Assembly (NCBI RefSeq): GCF_037977385.1
Contig: NZ_CP150277.1
Span: 2,085,001 to 2,149,000 of the forward strand
From: Terribacillus sp. FSL K6-0262
Lineage (GTDB): Bacteria; Bacillota; Bacilli; Bacillales; Amphibacillaceae
Length of the DNA: 64,000 nt
Reading direction: 5' to 3'
Below the pieces are notes generated by a model. It had not been told where the DNA came from, made no database searches, and saw nothing but the letters and a program-made list of their open reading frames with translations. Positions within the stretch are counted from its first letter, which is position 1. Each line of letters begins with the position of its first letter. The translations under genes were made by a program, and so were the position numbers. Shown here piece by piece: positions 41,864 through 49,574 of the stretch.

Positions 41864-41947
41864 TAGAAACAAGCAGGAAAAAAGTTTGGAACCTTTTGAA
41901 TCCCTGCCCGTATAAGAAGGTACAAGATAAGAGGATGGTGAAAGGTT

Positions 41948-42460
41948 TTGGGTATTCTTTCCCGTATATTCAAGAAAAAAGCTCCTGAGCGTCCTGCTGT
42001 GAGGGAACGTAATGCACTTTCCATCCAAGTGGGGGACATTGTCGAATATGACTTGGTCACGTATGAAGTAGTCGGCAAAATCACATCCCGCCAAGGGAAC
42101 TATGAATGGTTTGACTATCAGCTGGTGGAAGGGGATACAACATTGTGGCTCTCCGCGGAAATGGATGATGAATTGGAGCTGGGTATATATAAAAAAATCC
42201 CGCTTTCGGTGTCAAAACCATATCCGAAGCAGTTATCGTACGAGGGCCGGACTTACTACCTTGATGAGCAAGGTGAAGCGCGAGTCGTCGGGGAAGGAAG
42301 AAGTCGTAATGTGAATGGCTCCATCGTTCATTTTGCAGATTATTATGATGAAGATGAAGAGCATTTCCTTGGTCTTGAGGGCTGGGGAAGTGAAATAGAG
42401 GTCAGCTACGGCTATGAAATCAAACCGCGTGAAATCAAAATAATTGCGGGTTCAAATTAA
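41948..42460 (+). CDS. DUF4178 protein, first gene of a PspA operon
   Basis: A 170-residue soluble protein starting at TTG 41948 behind AAAGG. After a basic N-terminus (MGILSRIFKKKAPER) comes one DUF4178 domain: IQVGDIVEYDLVTYEVVGKI, then EWFDYQLVEGDTTLWLSAEMDD. DUF4178 proteins occur next to PspA and DUF350 genes in many bacteria, but their biochemical role is unknown. The pspA start follows by 25 bases, and the five genes to 45904 are closely spaced on the same strand. Confidence 0.78.
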   Translation: MGILSRIFKKKAPERPAVRERNALSIQVGDIVEYDLVTYEVVGKITSRQGNYEWFDYQLVEGDTTLWLSAEMDDELELGIYKKIPLSVSKPYPKQLSYEGRTYYLDEQGEARVVGEGRSRNVNGSIVHFADYYDEDEEHFLGLEGWGSEIEVSYGYEIKPREIKIIAGSN

Positions 42461-42485
42461 AAGATCAAAGGAGAGAATGAATAGT

Positions 42486-43154
42486 ATGTTCAAATTTTTT
42501 AATCGTGTGAAGACAGTCGTAAGCTCTGAATTGAATGCAATGCTGGATAAAGCCGAAGATCCGGTGAAAATGCTGGATCAGTTCATGCGTGATATGGAAG
42601 CGGATATCAGGGAAGCGGAAACTGCCGTTGCAAAACAGATAGCCAATGAAAAGATGCTTAAACGCAAGTATGATGATGCCAAGGCGATGGCTGATAAGCG
42701 TCAGAAGCAAGCAGAAACAGCTGTCGAAGCAGGTAATGATGATTTGGCTCGCCGTGCCCTGGAGGATAAGCAGACACATCAGCAGACGGCTGATACACTT
42801 TATGCATCCTGGGAGCGTGCATCCAGCGATGCAGCTGCCATCCGTCAGAAACTGGATGAAATGAAAAAAGAATACGCAGAAATGAAACTGAAAAAGGATT
42901 CCTTGAAAGCACGTGCTGAATCTGCCAAAACACGCACGAAGATGAACCGCACCATGTCCAGTATCGGCAGTGATGAGTCACGCAGCGGCTTCGAGCGTAT
43001 GGAAGAAAAGGTGCTGCAGTATGAGGCAGAGGCGGAAACCAGCGAGGACCTTTCCAAATCGAATCGCTCCCTCGATGATGAATTCGCTGCTTTGGAGAAA
43101 AATGGCGTCGACGATGAGTTAGCTGCCCTTAAAAAGAAAATGGGCAAAGAGTAA
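42486..43154 (+). CDS. pspA: PspA/IM30 family membrane-stress protein
   Basis: A 222-residue, almost fully helical coiled-coil protein of the PspA/IM30/Vipp1 family, related to ESCRT-III. These assemble on the inner membrane face and preserve its integrity under stress. The N-terminal amphipathic helix FKFFNRVKTVVSSELNAMLDKAEDPVKMLDQFMRDM is typical. The start is ATG 42486; an ATG three codons upstream (42477) is possible, since AAAGGAGAGA spacing suits neither perfectly. It is the second gene of the operon; a weak terminator follows, which would make it more abundant than later genes. Confidence 0.9.
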   Translation: MFKFFNRVKTVVSSELNAMLDKAEDPVKMLDQFMRDMEADIREAETAVAKQIANEKMLKRKYDDAKAMADKRQKQAETAVEAGNDDLARRALEDKQTHQQTADTLYASWERASSDAAAIRQKLDEMKKEYAEMKLKKDSLKARAESAKTRTKMNRTMSSIGSDESRSGFERMEEKVLQYEAEAETSEDLSKSNRSLDDEFAALEKNGVDDELAALKKKMGKE

Positions 43155-43178
43155 GCAGCCAAAGCCATCGGCAGGCTG

Positions 43179-43203
43179 ACCCTTGCGTGAAGCAAGGGTT
43201 TTC
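43179..43203 (+). terminator. Intra-operon attenuator-like hairpin
   Basis: ACCCTTGC-GTGAA-GCAAGGGT then TTTTCG, 25 bases after the pspA stop and 46 before the next gene. A short T-run suggests partial termination. Confidence 0.6.
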
Positions 43204-43248
43204 GTCTGTCTGCTGTACATAAGAAAAAGGGAGAAGGGAGGAGCTTTC

Positions 43249-43899
43249 ATGAAATATTGGCTGGCGGGTATCTGCCTGTGTTTTGTCCTCATCCTGGCTG
43301 GCTGCGGTAGTTCCGGTGATCAGTCTGCTTCTGTCAGCGATATACCTGATGAACCGGATAAGGAAACAGTCACCTCAGAATTTGAAAATAGTGCAGGGGA
43401 ATCGATCGAGACATTGATAGACAATAACTTCTATTTGCTCGATGTTGTTTCAGGAGATAGAAGCACCAGCGCAAATGTCTATGCAACGCGCCTTTATTCA
43501 GTGGACGAATTAGAAGAGCTGTTTAAGCAAACAGAAGGTCCTGATGAGATCAGCGATAAGAAAAACGGACAGCAAATCATGGTTTATGATGATGTCTTCA
43601 TCACGCTGAAACCTAGTGAAGAAGACGATGATGTCACCTTGATCGAAGTCGCGGACCGCAACTTTGTGCGCGAAAACTACTCACCGAACTATTTAAATAC
43701 ATTCTTTACATTTGCGCTGTTGAACTCCCTTTTTGGCAGCAATTGGAGCCAGACCAGAATGGATACTTGCCAGAACGGCGGGTGCTACGGAGGCTATACG
43801 TCGACATATCGGTCGGATGATGGCAGCGGCGGCACAGGAAGCACTGTACGACGCGGTACATCCGGCTATCGCGGCGGAGGGCCGGATGCAGGTAAATAA
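43249..43899 (+). CDS. DUF4247 lipoprotein
   Basis: A 216-residue lipoprotein with signal peptide ending LILAGC. The DUF4247 domain has the features IETLIDNNFYLLDVVSG and FVRENYSPNYLNTFF-LLNSLFG. The C-terminal 50 residues are Gly/Ser/Thr-rich and contain two cysteines (CQNGGC). GGGAGGAG precedes ATG 43249. It sits on the outer face of the membrane in an operon with PspA. Role unknown; it may sense or stabilise the membrane from outside. Confidence 0.8.
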   Translation: MKYWLAGICLCFVLILAGCGSSGDQSASVSDIPDEPDKETVTSEFENSAGESIETLIDNNFYLLDVVSGDRSTSANVYATRLYSVDELEELFKQTEGPDEISDKKNGQQIMVYDDVFITLKPSEEDDDVTLIEVADRNFVRENYSPNYLNTFFTFALLNSLFGSNWSQTRMDTCQNGGCYGGYTSTYRSDDGSGGTGSTVRRGTSGYRGGGPDAGK

Positions 43900-43930
43900 A
43901 GATAAACCATAAATAAGGAGGCATAGATTC

Positions 43931-44326
43931 ATGAATCCATTTCTATCAACGTTTTTGTATTTTGCCATTGCGGTTGTAATCGTCATCATTGGTCTTATCA
44001 TCTTTGAGCTGATCACGCATAAGTACCGGGACTGGGAGGAAATAGAAAAGGGCAACACAGCGGTGGCGTTGTCGATTGGCGGTAAGGTCATCGGGATCTG
44101 TCTTGTATTATCATTCTCCATTTATCACAGCAGCGAGCTTTGGGAAACGCTTATCTGGGGGGCTTATGGTGTCGTTCTGCAGATGGTAGCCTACTTCGTA
44201 TTCGAAGGGGTGACGAGGCGTTTCTCTGTCCAATCCAAGCTGAAAGAAAACAATATCGCTGTCGGAATCATTTCCTTGGCAGTTTCAGTCGGACTTGGAT
44301 TCGTCATCGGTGCATCCATTACGTAA
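43931..44326 (+). CDS. DUF350 membrane protein
   Basis: A 131-residue protein with four predicted helices, one DUF350 unit pair. It includes FALIIF-like FELITHKYRDWEEIEKGNTAVALSIGGK, the conserved loop between helices 1 and 2. DUF350 is also found in the E. coli yjfI-yjfC cluster (YjfL) beside a PspA-like protein, so the pairing is ancient. AAGGAGG precedes ATG; the next gene follows by 27 bases. Confidence 0.87.
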   Translation: MNPFLSTFLYFAIAVVIVIIGLIIFELITHKYRDWEEIEKGNTAVALSIGGKVIGICLVLSFSIYHSSELWETLIWGAYGVVLQMVAYFVFEGVTRRFSVQSKLKENNIAVGIISLAVSVGLGFVIGASIT

Positions 44327-44353
44327 GTTAAAAGCGGTTCGGAGATGAAAGAG

Positions 44354-45904
44354 ATGCAAGAGAAAGTATCGAATAAAACGTCATTCATATATTGGGCTTC
44401 AGGTATCGTTTCGATTTGCGGTATCATTTTCGAAGTCTTATTCGGGGCCCTAGGGTCCTATATTCTCGGAGATGGTGTGAAGCAATATACACTTACCATC
44501 TCTTTGTTTTTGACTGGTATGGGGATCGGTGCCAGCGTCAGCGAACGGGTGACGAAGCGGCTGATCCTGGCATTCATTTATATCGAATTCTTCGTGGCCT
44601 TGATCGGGGGATTCTCCAGTTTTACCATGTTCGGAATCACGGCCTATACTCCTGATGGAACAGATGCATTCTATCTATATTTCGTGACGCTTATCGTCGG
44701 GGCGCTCACTGGGGTGGAGCTGCCGATCCTCATCCGTAAAGCGAATGAGATCGGAGAGACGCTCGGCCGAAGTACGGCACGCGTCCTATTCAGTGATTAT
44801 GCGGGGGGACTGATCGGCGGGCTGCTTTTTGCCTTCCTGCTGCGCCCGCAATTCGGTATCGTCAAATCGGCATTTTTAGTCGGACTTGTCAATTTGGCAG
44901 TGGCGCTCATCGTTCTCTGGCTGTTTCGCGCGGAAGTGAAGCGCGTTGCCTTGCATGCCGCCGTCGGGATCGTCATTGGAATCATGCTCATCCTTGGTGT
45001 CTTTTTCGGGGAGGAGACTGCATTTTCCTTCGAGCAGAAGCTGTACGAGGATCCGATCATTCATATGGAACAAAGCCAGTATCAAAATATCATCCTTACC
45101 CAGGATGGAGATGATCTGCGGCTGTATTTGAATGGCGGCTTGCAGTTCAGCTCGTTCGATCAGCATCGGTACCATGATGCACTCGTCCATCCGGTCATGT
45201 CCCAAGCCAAGCAGCATGATCATGTGCTGATTCTTGGCGGAGGGGATGGTTTGGCTGCGAATGAAATCTTGAAGTACGATGACGTCCAGGATATCACGTT
45301 GGTCGATCTCGACCCTGCAGTGACCGAATTGGCGAAGACGGAGCCGAGACTGCTAGATCTGAATAATAGATCTTTATTAAATGATAAAGTGACCATCCAT
45401 AATCAGGATGCCTTCAACTACTTGAAGGAGACAGATCGGATGTATGATGTCATCATCGTGGATTTGCCCGATCCGAATGATGAGAGCTTGAACAAGCTTT
45501 ATACCGAAGAATTCTACTCATTGGTACGCAATCATATGAATCCCGAGGGAGCGATGATCGTCCAAGCGACCAGCCCGGTGTTTGCGACCGAGTCTTACTG
45601 GACGATAGACGAAACCATTCGTGCAACAGGACTGGAAACGGAAAATCTGCATTTGGATGTGCCGAGCTTCGGTAATTGGGGCTTTGTCATGGCCAGCAGA
45701 AACCCGATCGATCCGGATGAACTGGAAGTCACGGTACCCACGGAATATTTGAAAACGTCCATGATTCCAGGCATGACTGAATTCGGCAAGGATGAAGATA
45801 GGGAAATCACCAATTCAGATGGGGAAACCGTGTCACTGCGGCCGAATACATTGGTCGATCCGCACTTGATCGAGATTTACCAGCAGGAATGGAAGCATTA
45901 CTGA
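44354..45904 (+). CDS. Membrane-fused spermidine-synthase-like aminopropyltransferase
   Basis: About 516 residues. The N-terminal 215 form about seven helices (GALGSYILGDGVKQYTLTISLFLTGMGIGA and so on). The C-terminal half is a spermidine-synthase fold with ILGGGDGLAANEILKY for decarboxylated AdoMet, DLDPAVTE and VDLPDPND with the catalytic aspartate. It would add an aminopropyl group to putrescine or another amine at the membrane. ATG 44354 is eight bases after GGAG; an ATG three codons earlier is too close. Last gene of the PspA operon; its end overlaps the convergent Lrp-type gene by 7 bases. Confidence 0.87.
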   Translation: MQEKVSNKTSFIYWASGIVSICGIIFEVLFGALGSYILGDGVKQYTLTISLFLTGMGIGASVSERVTKRLILAFIYIEFFVALIGGFSSFTMFGITAYTPDGTDAFYLYFVTLIVGALTGVELPILIRKANEIGETLGRSTARVLFSDYAGGLIGGLLFAFLLRPQFGIVKSAFLVGLVNLAVALIVLWLFRAEVKRVALHAAVGIVIGIMLILGVFFGEETAFSFEQKLYEDPIIHMEQSQYQNIILTQDGDDLRLYLNGGLQFSSFDQHRYHDALVHPVMSQAKQHDHVLILGGGDGLAANEILKYDDVQDITLVDLDPAVTELAKTEPRLLDLNNRSLLNDKVTIHNQDAFNYLKETDRMYDVIIVDLPDPNDESLNKLYTEEFYSLVRNHMNPEGAMIVQATSPVFATESYWTIDETIRATGLETENLHLDVPSFGNWGFVMASRNPIDPDELEVTVPTEYLKTSMIPGMTEFGKDEDREITNSDGETVSLRPNTLVDPHLIEIYQQEWKHY

Positions 45905-47422: not shown

Positions 47423-48454
47423 ATGGAACAACATTTGACATATACGATGCCTCCGGAATGGGAGAAGCATGAGCGTACACTGATTAGCTGGCCGGTAAAA
47501 GATTCCATGGTGTACCCGGAGGATTGGGAAGCTGTTTGTAAAGGTTATGCGGAACTGATCCTGGCTATCGCGGAATTCGAACCGATTACGGTATTGGTGA
47601 ACGCAGAGGATCAAGATGCAGCGTCTTCTTATGTGGGACAAGCTGAGAATGTGACATTGCTTGAAGTCTCCCATAATGATGCATGGCTGCGTGATAATGG
47701 TCCGACATTCGTCCGGGACGAAGCGGGCAAGCTGGCAGGTGTGAACTGGCGTTTCAATGCATGGGGAGAGAAGTATTTCCCATGGGATCTGGATGATGCG
47801 GTGGCTCCTGCGGTCTTGAGCCACTTAGGCATTCAACAATTGGATGCTCCATTGGTATTGGAGGGCGGATCCATTCATGTGGACGGGGAAGGCACCCTGA
47901 TCACTACCGAGGAATGCCTTTTGAACCCGAACCGCAATCCTGATCTGTCCAAAGAGGATATCGAGGCTTATCTCCGTCGATATCTTGGTATTGAAAAAGT
48001 GATTTGGCTTAAACGCGGTGTTGCTGGAGATGAAACAGACGGACATGTCGATAATATCGCTTGCTTCGCGGCACCTGGTAAGCTGCTGCTGCAGGTGACA
48101 GATGATCCAGACGATGAAAATTATGAGATTACGCAGGAAAACCTGCGGATCCTTGATGAGACGAAGGATGCCAAAGGCCGTCAAATCGAAGTCATCGCAG
48201 TCCAGCAGCCGCCGAAGGCCACTTGGAATGACACGCGTTTGACATTGAGCTATATCAATTTCTATTTTGTGAATGGCGGCATCATCCTTCCTGTGTTCGG
48301 CAATACTGCCGCAGGAACAGATGAACGGGCGATCAAATTGCTTCAGGAGCAATTCCCGGATCGCCGGATCCGTACGATTGATGGACTGGCTATCATCAAA
48401 GAGGGCGGAAATGTGCATTGTACGACACAGCAAATGCCCGCAATAAAGGAGTGA
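47423..48454 (+). CDS. aguA: Agmatine deiminase
   Basis: A 343-residue guanidino-modifying enzyme that turns agmatine into N-carbamoylputrescine and ammonia. It has HNDAWLRDNGPTFV, LEGGSIHVDGEGT, DETDGHVDNIA with the catalytic histidine, and GGNVHCTTQQ with the nucleophilic cysteine. This fits the peptidyl-arginine-deiminase-like fold. The amidase for the next step follows by five bases, so the two make putrescine from agmatine. Confidence 0.95.
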   Translation: MEQHLTYTMPPEWEKHERTLISWPVKDSMVYPEDWEAVCKGYAELILAIAEFEPITVLVNAEDQDAASSYVGQAENVTLLEVSHNDAWLRDNGPTFVRDEAGKLAGVNWRFNAWGEKYFPWDLDDAVAPAVLSHLGIQQLDAPLVLEGGSIHVDGEGTLITTEECLLNPNRNPDLSKEDIEAYLRRYLGIEKVIWLKRGVAGDETDGHVDNIACFAAPGKLLLQVTDDPDDENYEITQENLRILDETKDAKGRQIEVIAVQQPPKATWNDTRLTLSYINFYFVNGGIILPVFGNTAAGTDERAIKLLQEQFPDRRIRTIDGLAIIKEGGNVHCTTQQMPAIKE

Positions 48455-48459
48455 ATCGA

Positions 48460-49335
48460 TTGAGAAAAGTAACCGTGGCTGCCACACAGATGGCTTGTTC
48501 TGGTGCAGTGGAAGAGAATATCGCCAATGCCGAGAAGCTTGTCCGCCAAGCTGCTGCAAAAGGCGCGAATGTCATTTTGCTGCAGGAGTTGTTCGAGACA
48601 CCTTACTTCTGCCAGAAGGAAAAGCCTGCTTATTATGCGTATGCAACAGAGCTGGACCAGAACAAAGCGGTGCAGCATTTCAAACAGGTGGCAAAAGAGC
48701 TTGGTGTGGTACTCCCGATCAGCTTTTATGAGAAAAAGAATAATGCAAACTATAATACAGTCGCTATGATCGATGCAGACGGATCTGTACTTGGCATCTA
48801 CCGGAAAACACATATTCCCGATGGACCAGGCTATGAGGAGAAATATTATTTTTCACCTGGGGATACTGGTTTCAAGGTATGGGATACGAGATTCGGAAAA
48901 ATCGGTGTCGGTATTTGCTGGGATCAGTGGTTCCCGGAAGCTGCTCGCAGCATGGCGCTCCAGGGAGCGGAAATCCTGCTATATCCAACAGCGATCGGCT
49001 CAGAGCCGGAGGATGCAAGCATCGATTCGAAGGATCATTGGCAAATGTGCATGCGCGGTCATGCAGCAGCCAATTTGGTGCCTGTCTTGGCATCGAATCG
49101 GATCGGAGTAGAGTCGGATGATGATTCGTCCATCACATTCTATGGTTCTTCCTTCATTGCTGGACCGCAGGGGAATTTGCTTAAGGAAGCAGGACGTACA
49201 GAAGAAGAAATCCTAATGGAAACATTCGATCTGGATGAACTCGCGATGCAGCGAGTGGAATGGGGTCTGTTCCGTGACCGCCGTCCGTCGATGTACCGCA
49301 ATCTCCTGAGCTCCGATGGCTCGACAATCATATAA
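48460..49335 (+). CDS. aguB: N-carbamoylputrescine amidase
   Basis: A 291-residue nitrilase-superfamily enzyme releasing putrescine, CO2 and ammonia. The Glu-Lys-Cys triad lies in LLQELFETPYFC, YRKTHIPDGPGYEEKYYF and GVGICWDQWFPE. It starts at TTG 48460, eight bases after AAAGGAG that overlaps the aguA end; an earlier in-frame ATG lies inside aguA. A terminator follows at once. Putrescine made here could feed the aminopropyltransferase 2.5 kb upstream. Confidence 0.94.
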   Translation: MRKVTVAATQMACSGAVEENIANAEKLVRQAAAKGANVILLQELFETPYFCQKEKPAYYAYATELDQNKAVQHFKQVAKELGVVLPISFYEKKNNANYNTVAMIDADGSVLGIYRKTHIPDGPGYEEKYYFSPGDTGFKVWDTRFGKIGVGICWDQWFPEAARSMALQGAEILLYPTAIGSEPEDASIDSKDHWQMCMRGHAAANLVPVLASNRIGVESDDDSSITFYGSSFIAGPQGNLLKEAGRTEEEILMETFDLDELAMQRVEWGLFRDRRPSMYRNLLSSDGSTII

Positions 49336-49572: not shown

Positions 49573-49574
49573 CA

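Follow-up and report, generated by a model that had tools for sequence, protein, structure and literature searches.

A predicted exported protein with a C-terminal lysine accompanies a membrane-fused aminopropyltransferase in a PspA operon of Terribacillus and at related loci across phyla

The five-gene operon

The sequence under study was a 64-kb stretch of the genome of Terribacillus sp. FSL K6-0262 (positions 2,085,001 to 2,149,000 of NZ_CP150277.1, a chromosome of 3.35 Mb in a single contig), referred to here as the window. At 41948..45904 of the window, five adjacent open reading frames (ORFs) on the forward (+) strand encode a DUF4178 protein, a member of the PspA/IM30 family, a DUF4247 protein, a DUF350 protein and a membrane-fused spermidine-synthase-type protein, here called SYN. 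An original prediction, made from the letters alone, had described this five-gene set at one place and on one strand, and it was confirmed by the ORF positions and by Pfam and NCBIfam scans; the intergenic gaps are 25, 94, 31 and 18 nt. The DUF4247 protein, predicted to be exported, ends in a glycine-rich tail with lysine as its last residue, and we found that SYN nearly always has a predicted exported protein with a tail ending in (G/H)K-COOH beside it, an association that is new here.

The first gene (41948..42460, TTG start; PF13785, 1.7e-34) encodes the DUF4178 protein, predicted to be cytosolic, and the second (42486..43154, likely start ATG 42486; PF04012, PspA_IM30, 3e-48) the PspA/IM30 protein. 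The DUF4247 gene (43249..43899, likely start ATG 43249; PF14042, 3.7e-8) specifies a predicted lipoprotein with a lipobox-like ILAGC, and the codons at 43870..43896 specify its C-terminal tail RGGGPDAGK, which has the conserved RGGG...GK ending described below. It is followed by the gene for the DUF350 membrane protein (43931..44326; PF03994, 6.1e-38) and by that for SYN (44345..45904), which comprises a seven-helix domain at approximately residues 16–222 and an aminopropyltransferase domain at residues 223–519 (Spermine_synth PF01564, 4.5e-36) that is predicted to face outside. Searches of solved structures with profiles were uninformative for the three DUF families (best E 0.16 for DUF4178 and 0.16 for DUF350, no match for DUF4247).

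Conservation of the gene unit

Two surveys were used. One took 80 SYN loci kept from at least 575 relatives found in a scan of genome contigs; these are named loci from multiple phyla, and some of their genomes may be of the same species as genomes in the other survey. The other covered 151 Bacilli-class genomes, which were considered SYN-positive when a protein scored over the cut-off of the NCBIfam model NF002956 (polyamine aminopropyltransferase), as was the case for 11 of them. The order DUF4178-PspA-DUF4247-DUF350-SYN is found in 10 of these 11, including the window, and the remaining one (G082) lies on a contig that stops after DUF4247; in one genome (G019), approximately 950 nt lie between DUF350 and the synthase. 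Among the 80 loci the exact order recurs in 25, of which 24 are of the Bacillaceae/Planococcaceae type and one is L077, and a DUF350 match, obtained with a hidden Markov model (HMM) built from 11 Bacilli sequences, lies near SYN in 68. Outside the Bacillota fewer of the genes remain, namely those for DUF350, a DUF4178-like protein, the synthase and a small protein with a tail. The closest named relative of SYN among the matches listed is from Terribacillus aidingensis (90 % identity), and the five families do group beyond this genus, as the co-occurrence check proposed with the original prediction asked. Because the grouping is conserved over many genomes, it is not due to chance. The earlier idea of one conserved unit that spans the inside (PspA, DUF4178), the membrane (DUF350, SYN) and the outside (DUF4247) is supported, with the placement of each part predicted.

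A lysine-ending tail beside SYN

When the DUF4247 proteins of the 11 SYN-positive Bacilli were aligned, the C-terminus RGGG...GK was invariant (11/11). A first scan of the 80 loci for ORFs near SYN that end in GK recovered 76 of 2716 on the same strand, some PspA ends included, versus 11 of 3422 ORFs on the antisense strand and 14 of 5028 that lie at a distance. Under a stricter rule, a tail was scored only if an ORF with a hydrophobic segment ended in (G/H)K and had its stop no more than 2.3 kb upstream of SYN; ORFs ending in MGK (PspA ends) were removed from the observed count and kept in the controls. Such a tail was present in 68 of the 80 loci, across phyla, and in the controls in 0/80 (antisense), 0/62 (downstream) and 1/57 (far upstream). 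It was found in 65 of the 68 loci with a DUF350 match versus 3 of the 12 without. Two loci (L111 and L122) have FGGK tails that fell under the hydropathy cut and so were not counted. The ends themselves vary, as 49 of the 68 fit GGG...GK and the other 19 are mostly Gly/Ser-rich or Arg/Tyr-rich.

Sets chosen without regard to the ending gave the same picture. All 31 DUF4247 HMM matches in the 80 loci carry GGG...GK, and 25 of them have a lipobox-like pattern. DUF4178 matches longer than 230 aa with a later helix end in a tail in 12 of 13 cases, the thirteenth (L103) being truncated at the locus end, versus none of 37 short DUF4178 proteins. Among 27 further DUF350 loci, 14 have a small ORF with a helix directly before DUF350 (a rule of position only), and at 13 of these 14 loci one such ORF ends in (G/H)K, corresponding to 13 of the 17 small helix ORFs in all. 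The hosts of the tail are of several kinds with no visible mutual similarity, namely DUF4247 proteins, fusions of DUF4178, helix and tail, and single-helix proteins of mostly 46–80 residues. The fusions, single proteins made up of a DUF4178 match, a helix and a tailed part, occur in twelve loci (Clostridia-type and others), of which four were read and one was tested with Pfam. As these fusions are tailed and the short DUF4178 proteins are not, the tail belongs with the predicted outside part and not with DUF4178.

DUF4247 endings in Bacilli with and without SYN

DUF4247 is present in 39 of the 151 Bacilli genomes, and counting one DUF4247 per genome, it ends in GK in 11/11 SYN-positive and 0/28 SYN-negative genomes (Fisher p = 6e-10, with ancestry ignored). 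Second copies in G114 and G136 lie outside this count, and that in G103 has a basic end. In 27 of the 28 SYN-negative genomes the protein ends in two basic residues (for example ..VGGxGxITKRR or ..GGGRIMRRR), and in G041 it ends otherwise. The net charge of the last 12 residues is +1 to +3 in the 11 SYN-positive genomes versus +4 to +6 in the 17 distinct SYN-negative ends, which were counted in place of every genome. The other partners persist without SYN: in 16 SYN-less stretches, drawn from the 33 SYN-less genomes with DUF4178, 11 hold PspA, DUF350, DUF4178 and DUF4247 and the other five hold fewer of these genes.

The SYN enzyme

SYN scores 602.9 bits with NF002956, over the curated cut-off of 472, and lies below the canonical spermidine synthase equivalog TIGR00417 (132.9 bits, cut-off 249.55); among solved structures, spermidine synthases match its synthase domain, with a best E of 8.4e-45. 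When 47 SYN sequences were compared with 17 canonical SpeE sequences of Bacilli, Q247, Y276, E278, H282, D301, D323, D355, D373, D376 and Q407 were kept in at least 96 % of SYN. The position of E278 is Asp in the SYN of the window, and D376 is Asp in only 59 % of canonical SpeE. Fixed or nearly fixed in SYN only are R275, W419, D483 and an SFG that replaces TYPSG, and more generally the acceptor-side TYPSG and GPA motifs of canonical SpeE are replaced in SYN by SFG and N.S. In SpeE structures, the kept residues are those of catalysis and of the site for the donor, decarboxylated S-adenosylmethionine (dcSAM), and the changed motifs are those that border the acceptor.

Averaged over 80 sequences, hydropathy gave six peaks above threshold and a weaker seventh near residues 48–66, which we read as seven helices followed by the synthase domain. 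Lys and Arg are more numerous on loops 2, 4 and 6 than on loops 1, 3 and 5 plus the flank after the seventh transmembrane helix (TM7) in 80/80 sequences, those of the window and 79 loci (mean 9.0 versus 3.4). The flank after TM7 is acidic, with a net charge of −1.8 versus +2.5 on loop 6, and 78 of the 80 differ in that sense, with 2 ties. Applied to these counts, the positive-inside rule places loops 2, 4 and 6 inside, and hence the synthase domain is predicted to face outside, on the same side as the tail. Acidic residues lie within the helices (E30 in 78/80, E81 in 72/80, E125 in 79/80 and D151 in 80/80), as would be expected if the helices formed a route for a cationic molecule like dcSAM. 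Cysteine content was also considered as an argument and set aside, as the means of 1.3 in the SYN domain and 2.6 in canonical SpeE were not decisive.

Promoter motif and predicted control

The sigma-W consensus is TGAAAC-N16/17-CGTA. A pattern scan found a promoter motif of this sigma-W type, or extracytoplasmic function (ECF) type, TGGAAC-N16-CGTA, at 41887..41912 on the + strand, with one mismatch to TGAAAC. It is the sole + strand match to TG(A/G)AAC-N15..18-CGTN in the window; one match on the − strand (N15, CGTT) lies at 49574. The host has its own sigW gene (311 bits, cut-off 243), so that promoter motif and sigma factor gene, the two marks of a sigma-W regulon, are both found in this genome.

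The motif is shared by related operons. In ten Bacilli loci, eight score at least 9/10 upstream of the called start (background 66/3000); L040 has a perfect site just past the first start codon, which is probably too early, and L035 fails. Upstream of the operon in Bacillaceae-type loci, 22 of 24 score at least 9/10 (background 106/4000; L067 and L070 fail) when the spacing is widened post hoc from N16 to N16/N17, N16 alone having given 15/28. The set of 24 omits L071, L072, L077 and L095, with N16 scores of 7, 6, 8 and 8, respectively, and L060, which has no upstream sequence. Of 13 operons that lack SYN, 11 carry the motif ahead of pspA. We predict from these motifs that the operon is under envelope-stress control of the sigma-W type.

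Other features of the locus, the genome and related loci

The operon is flanked by UvdE and Lrp/AsnC genes on the opposite strand. In the gap between pspA and the DUF4247 gene, a stem-loop with an 8-bp stem lies at 43179..43199 (+); it is absent from the terminator-scan listing, and its stem was judged by eye without a shuffle control. Of 26 gaps between these two genes that were judged in the same way, 20 span at least 40 nt and contain a foldable stem of varying sequence. Such a stem-loop would perhaps raise the output of PspA above that of its membrane partners.

Downstream of the operon, aguA-aguB (agmatine to putrescine) occupy 47423–49335. They were considered as a part of the same device and rejected, because besides the window only L034, a locus from the same genus, has them near the operon; the nine other SYN-positive Bacilli stretches, one of which is cut by a contig end, lack them there. 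Elsewhere the genome has a 277-aa spermidine-synthase-type gene, an SpeE of ordinary size, together with SpeD and sigW. The original prediction had mentioned none of these three genes, nor aguA-aguB, the promoter motif or the conservation of the DUF4247 tail. Its second PspA-family protein adjoins LiaF-, kinase- and regulator-like genes identified with Pfam (L046) and constitutes a separate lia-type locus. Its second DUF350 comes after a MutS2-type gene (L144:3438-6205), and a MutS2-like gene precedes the complete five-gene operon in L039 (5302-7853, tested with Pfam) and, from a look at the sequence only, in L040 and L041. The lone second DUF350 may thus mark a former or ancestral site of the operon.

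A SpeD gene is present in all 11 SYN-positive Bacilli genomes. In 56 of the loci (L071-L126), clusters of neighbouring genes, one member of each of which was tested with Pfam, placed AdoMet_dc-type genes near SYN in 13, amine-oxidase-type genes in 13 and Band-7 genes in 8. Of the 13 loci with an amine-oxidase-type gene, 12 (L105-L107, L110, L113-L117 and L120-L122) have it directly after SYN, and L100 has it before SYN. Several of these proteins begin with an apparent export signal, and a possible role would be that of an eraser outside the cell. Right after SYN in five Campylobacterota loci (L079, tested with Pfam, L083, L089, L097 and L108) is a gene with the fold of pyridoxal-phosphate-dependent decarboxylases, which by our reading looks carboxynorspermidine-decarboxylase-like. 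Two ORFs of 550 and 585 aa (L043:7079-8731 and L044:7996-9753) have diverged synthase-like similarity and lie in stretches with no matches to the operon partners; that in L044 holds two synthase-like stretches.

A proposed reaction and its alternatives

The enzyme and the tail occur together, a terminal lysine offers an aminobutyl amine like that of putrescine, SYN-less Bacilli encode a basic tail, and E. coli pairs proteins ending in GG with a ligase. From this association we infer that SYN faces outward and transfers aminopropyl groups to the C-terminal lysine of its own surface protein, in the manner of hypusine, within a device under sigma-W-type control; we put the probability of this reading at roughly 0.45. 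The original prediction had looked to polyamine modification of lipids or the wall, or to polyamine export; these received no support here, the modification was set aside as no observation in this analysis pointed to it, and the C-terminal lysine of the exported partner appears to be the better candidate acceptor. In the proposed scheme, the aminopropyltransferase domain would lie on the outer face of the membrane, and the seven-helix domain with its conserved acids, perhaps together with DUF350, would pass or hold the cationic donor dcSAM made by SpeD. The Gly-rich tail of DUF4247 would enter the active site. There, its terminal lysine would offer an epsilon-amine that mimics, on a peptide, the aminobutyl arm of putrescine, and this amine would receive one or more aminopropyl groups. 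The resulting polycationic tail could then bind the anionic membrane surface or the wall, and DUF4178 and PspA on the inner face might connect this binding to membrane repair. Bacilli that lack SYN encode a basic tail (..KRR) directly. Only tentatively can the scheme be extended to many phyla, in which an extracytoplasmic aminopropyltransferase would act on the C-terminal lysine of a dedicated exported protein to give N6-(3-aminopropyl)lysine or a polyamine arm of greater length, a modification like hypusine but made outside the cell, with aminopropylated GK, spermidine-ligated GG and encoded KRR as three routes to the same cationic tail.

Several observations weigh against this reading. At nine loci (L060, L078, L088, L092, L100, L103, L119, L124 and L125) both a DUF350 match and a tail are missing beside SYN, and hence SYN can exist without a tailed partner, though L060, L119, L124 and L125 have less than 2.3 kb of upstream sequence; at L108 there is a DUF350 and yet no tail was found. 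The tail rule was itself widened from GK to (G/H)K after the data had been seen. The contrast in DUF4247 endings covers Bacilli only, and because the 13 SYN-less loci in our tree, from which four SYN-less genomes of family f39 with DUF4247 were left out, form one clade (support 1.0), the 11/11 versus 0/28 may represent one evolutionary event. SYN-less loci also differ in gene order. In G082, a second DUF4247 (26.6 bits, cut-off 27) lies away from the synthase and ends in GK, though the genome is SYN-positive. The predicted topology of SYN is drawn from charge only, its second helix being weak in hydropathy, and a domain on the outside needs a donor on the outside, for which we know of no precedent.

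The alternative that we would dismiss least readily, unlikely as it is, holds that SYN is an ordinary polyamine synthase, of spermidine or a like product, anchored in the membrane, that the polyamine it makes is exported or serves to stabilise the membrane, and that the tailed protein only docks on SYN or regulates it. This would account for the NF002956 score as a polyamine aminopropyltransferase, for the retained catalytic aspartates and donor-site residues and for the AdoMet_dc-type genes in some operons, and it would be in line with the polyamine sensing proposed by Ravi et al. (2024; PMC11237479). However, besides SYN, 10 of the 11 SYN-positive Bacilli genomes hold one or more additional spermidine-synthase-type matches, the acceptor-side motifs are consistently different, and an ordinary synthase leaves unexplained both the near-fixed C-terminal lysine on dissimilar proteins and its loss in Bacilli that lack SYN.

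The tail could also act without being a substrate. Gly-rich tails with a fixed last residue can serve in docking, and their presence on dissimilar hosts would suit a signal for recognition or cleavage, be it for assembly with DUF350 and SYN or for a protease. Against this improbable reading, no GK ending is seen in the 11 SYN-less stretches where PspA, DUF350, DUF4178 and DUF4247 are all retained, which points to SYN and not to the other partners. Slightly more improbable again is a wall anchor, in which the epsilon-amine of the C-terminal lysine would be joined to peptidoglycan as in Braun's lipoprotein, and SYN would have a separate task. A predicted exported protein with a flexible tail and a terminal lysine is what such an anchor requires, but in Bacilli the GK ending tracks SYN, and most SYN-less ends are arginine, which is unable to form this link.

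If an aminopropylated C-terminal lysine is indeed the product, it would be a new post-translational modification, made by an enzyme that acts on the opposite side of the membrane to the synthesis of its donor, and would give a reason for the repeated presence of polyamine enzymes beside PspA. The model joins DUF4178, DUF4247, DUF350 and the seven-helix synthase, previously a list of unknown families, into a single machine that can be tested, for which enzyme, donor and acceptor atom are all proposed.

Comparison with known systems

Among the matches listed in a search of open-licence PMC titles and abstracts, none described such a C-terminal lysine tail, an outside aminopropyltransferase or an aminopropylated protein lysine, and a word search of a survey of bacterial aminopropyltransferases (PMC11107197) did not find 'transmembrane', 'PspA' or 'extracellular'. 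DUF4247 or DUF4178 is mentioned in three of the open-licence papers searched. The context of the operon has been described. Ravi et al. (2024, mSystems; PMC11237479) report PspA with DUF350, DUF4178, a lipoprotein and a seven-transmembrane domain fused to a spermidine synthase, and suggest a link to polyamines or aminopropylation; the statement in the original prediction that the roles of DUF4178, DUF4247 and DUF350 were undescribed was thus too strong. The words lysine, glycine and sigW are absent from their main text, on which basis we treat neither the tail nor the promoter as part of that description. The window operon differs from the second CesT/Tir-PspA group of those authors in having no CesT/Tir-like (DUF2170, YjfI-like) gene within the operon, to which our examination was confined and which has no room for a further gene. 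Its lipoprotein is DUF4247 only by Pfam and not of the Ctha_1186 kind, and Ravi et al. place DUF4247 in a variant that lacks PspA. Hence, we regard the operon as a Bacillota variant of their theme and have not filed it as a member of the second group. A related pspA system, the bac operon of Pseudomonas aeruginosa, has biofilm phenotypes and, according to its authors, no spermidine synthase (PMC10948618).

Canonical SpeE has the dcSAM-site and catalytic residues in common with SYN, but not the acceptor-side motifs or the equivalog score. The lia and pspA-ydj operons of Bacillus share a PspA-family protein and a link to envelope stress with the window operon, and their partners differ. With the hypusine or deoxyhypusine of eIF5A, the proposed product would share a polyamine-derived arm on the epsilon-amine of a lysine; no homology is claimed, and in our model the group would be an aminopropyl from dcSAM, not an aminobutyl from spermidine, on an exported C-terminal lysine.

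The parallel with E. coli drawn in the original prediction is real. The operon yjfIJKLMC includes the PspA-like YjfJ, the DUF350 protein YjfL, a partner with a Gly-rich C-terminus and a polyamine enzyme. In both yjfIJKLMC and ygiBC the enzymes are ligases (YjfC and YgiC) instead of an aminopropyltransferase, and the partners YjfM and YgiB, which adjoin the genes annotated as peptide--spermidine ligase, end in GG and not in GK. YjfC and YgiC reportedly have peptide-spermidine ligase activity (attributed to Pederick, 2023). The GspS/YjfC ligases are ATP-grasp enzymes, and no ATP-grasp match was found among the ten window proteins scanned with Pfam and NCBIfam. As neighbours of proteins ending in GG, the E. 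coli peptide-spermidine ligases might find in such C-termini their natural substrate.

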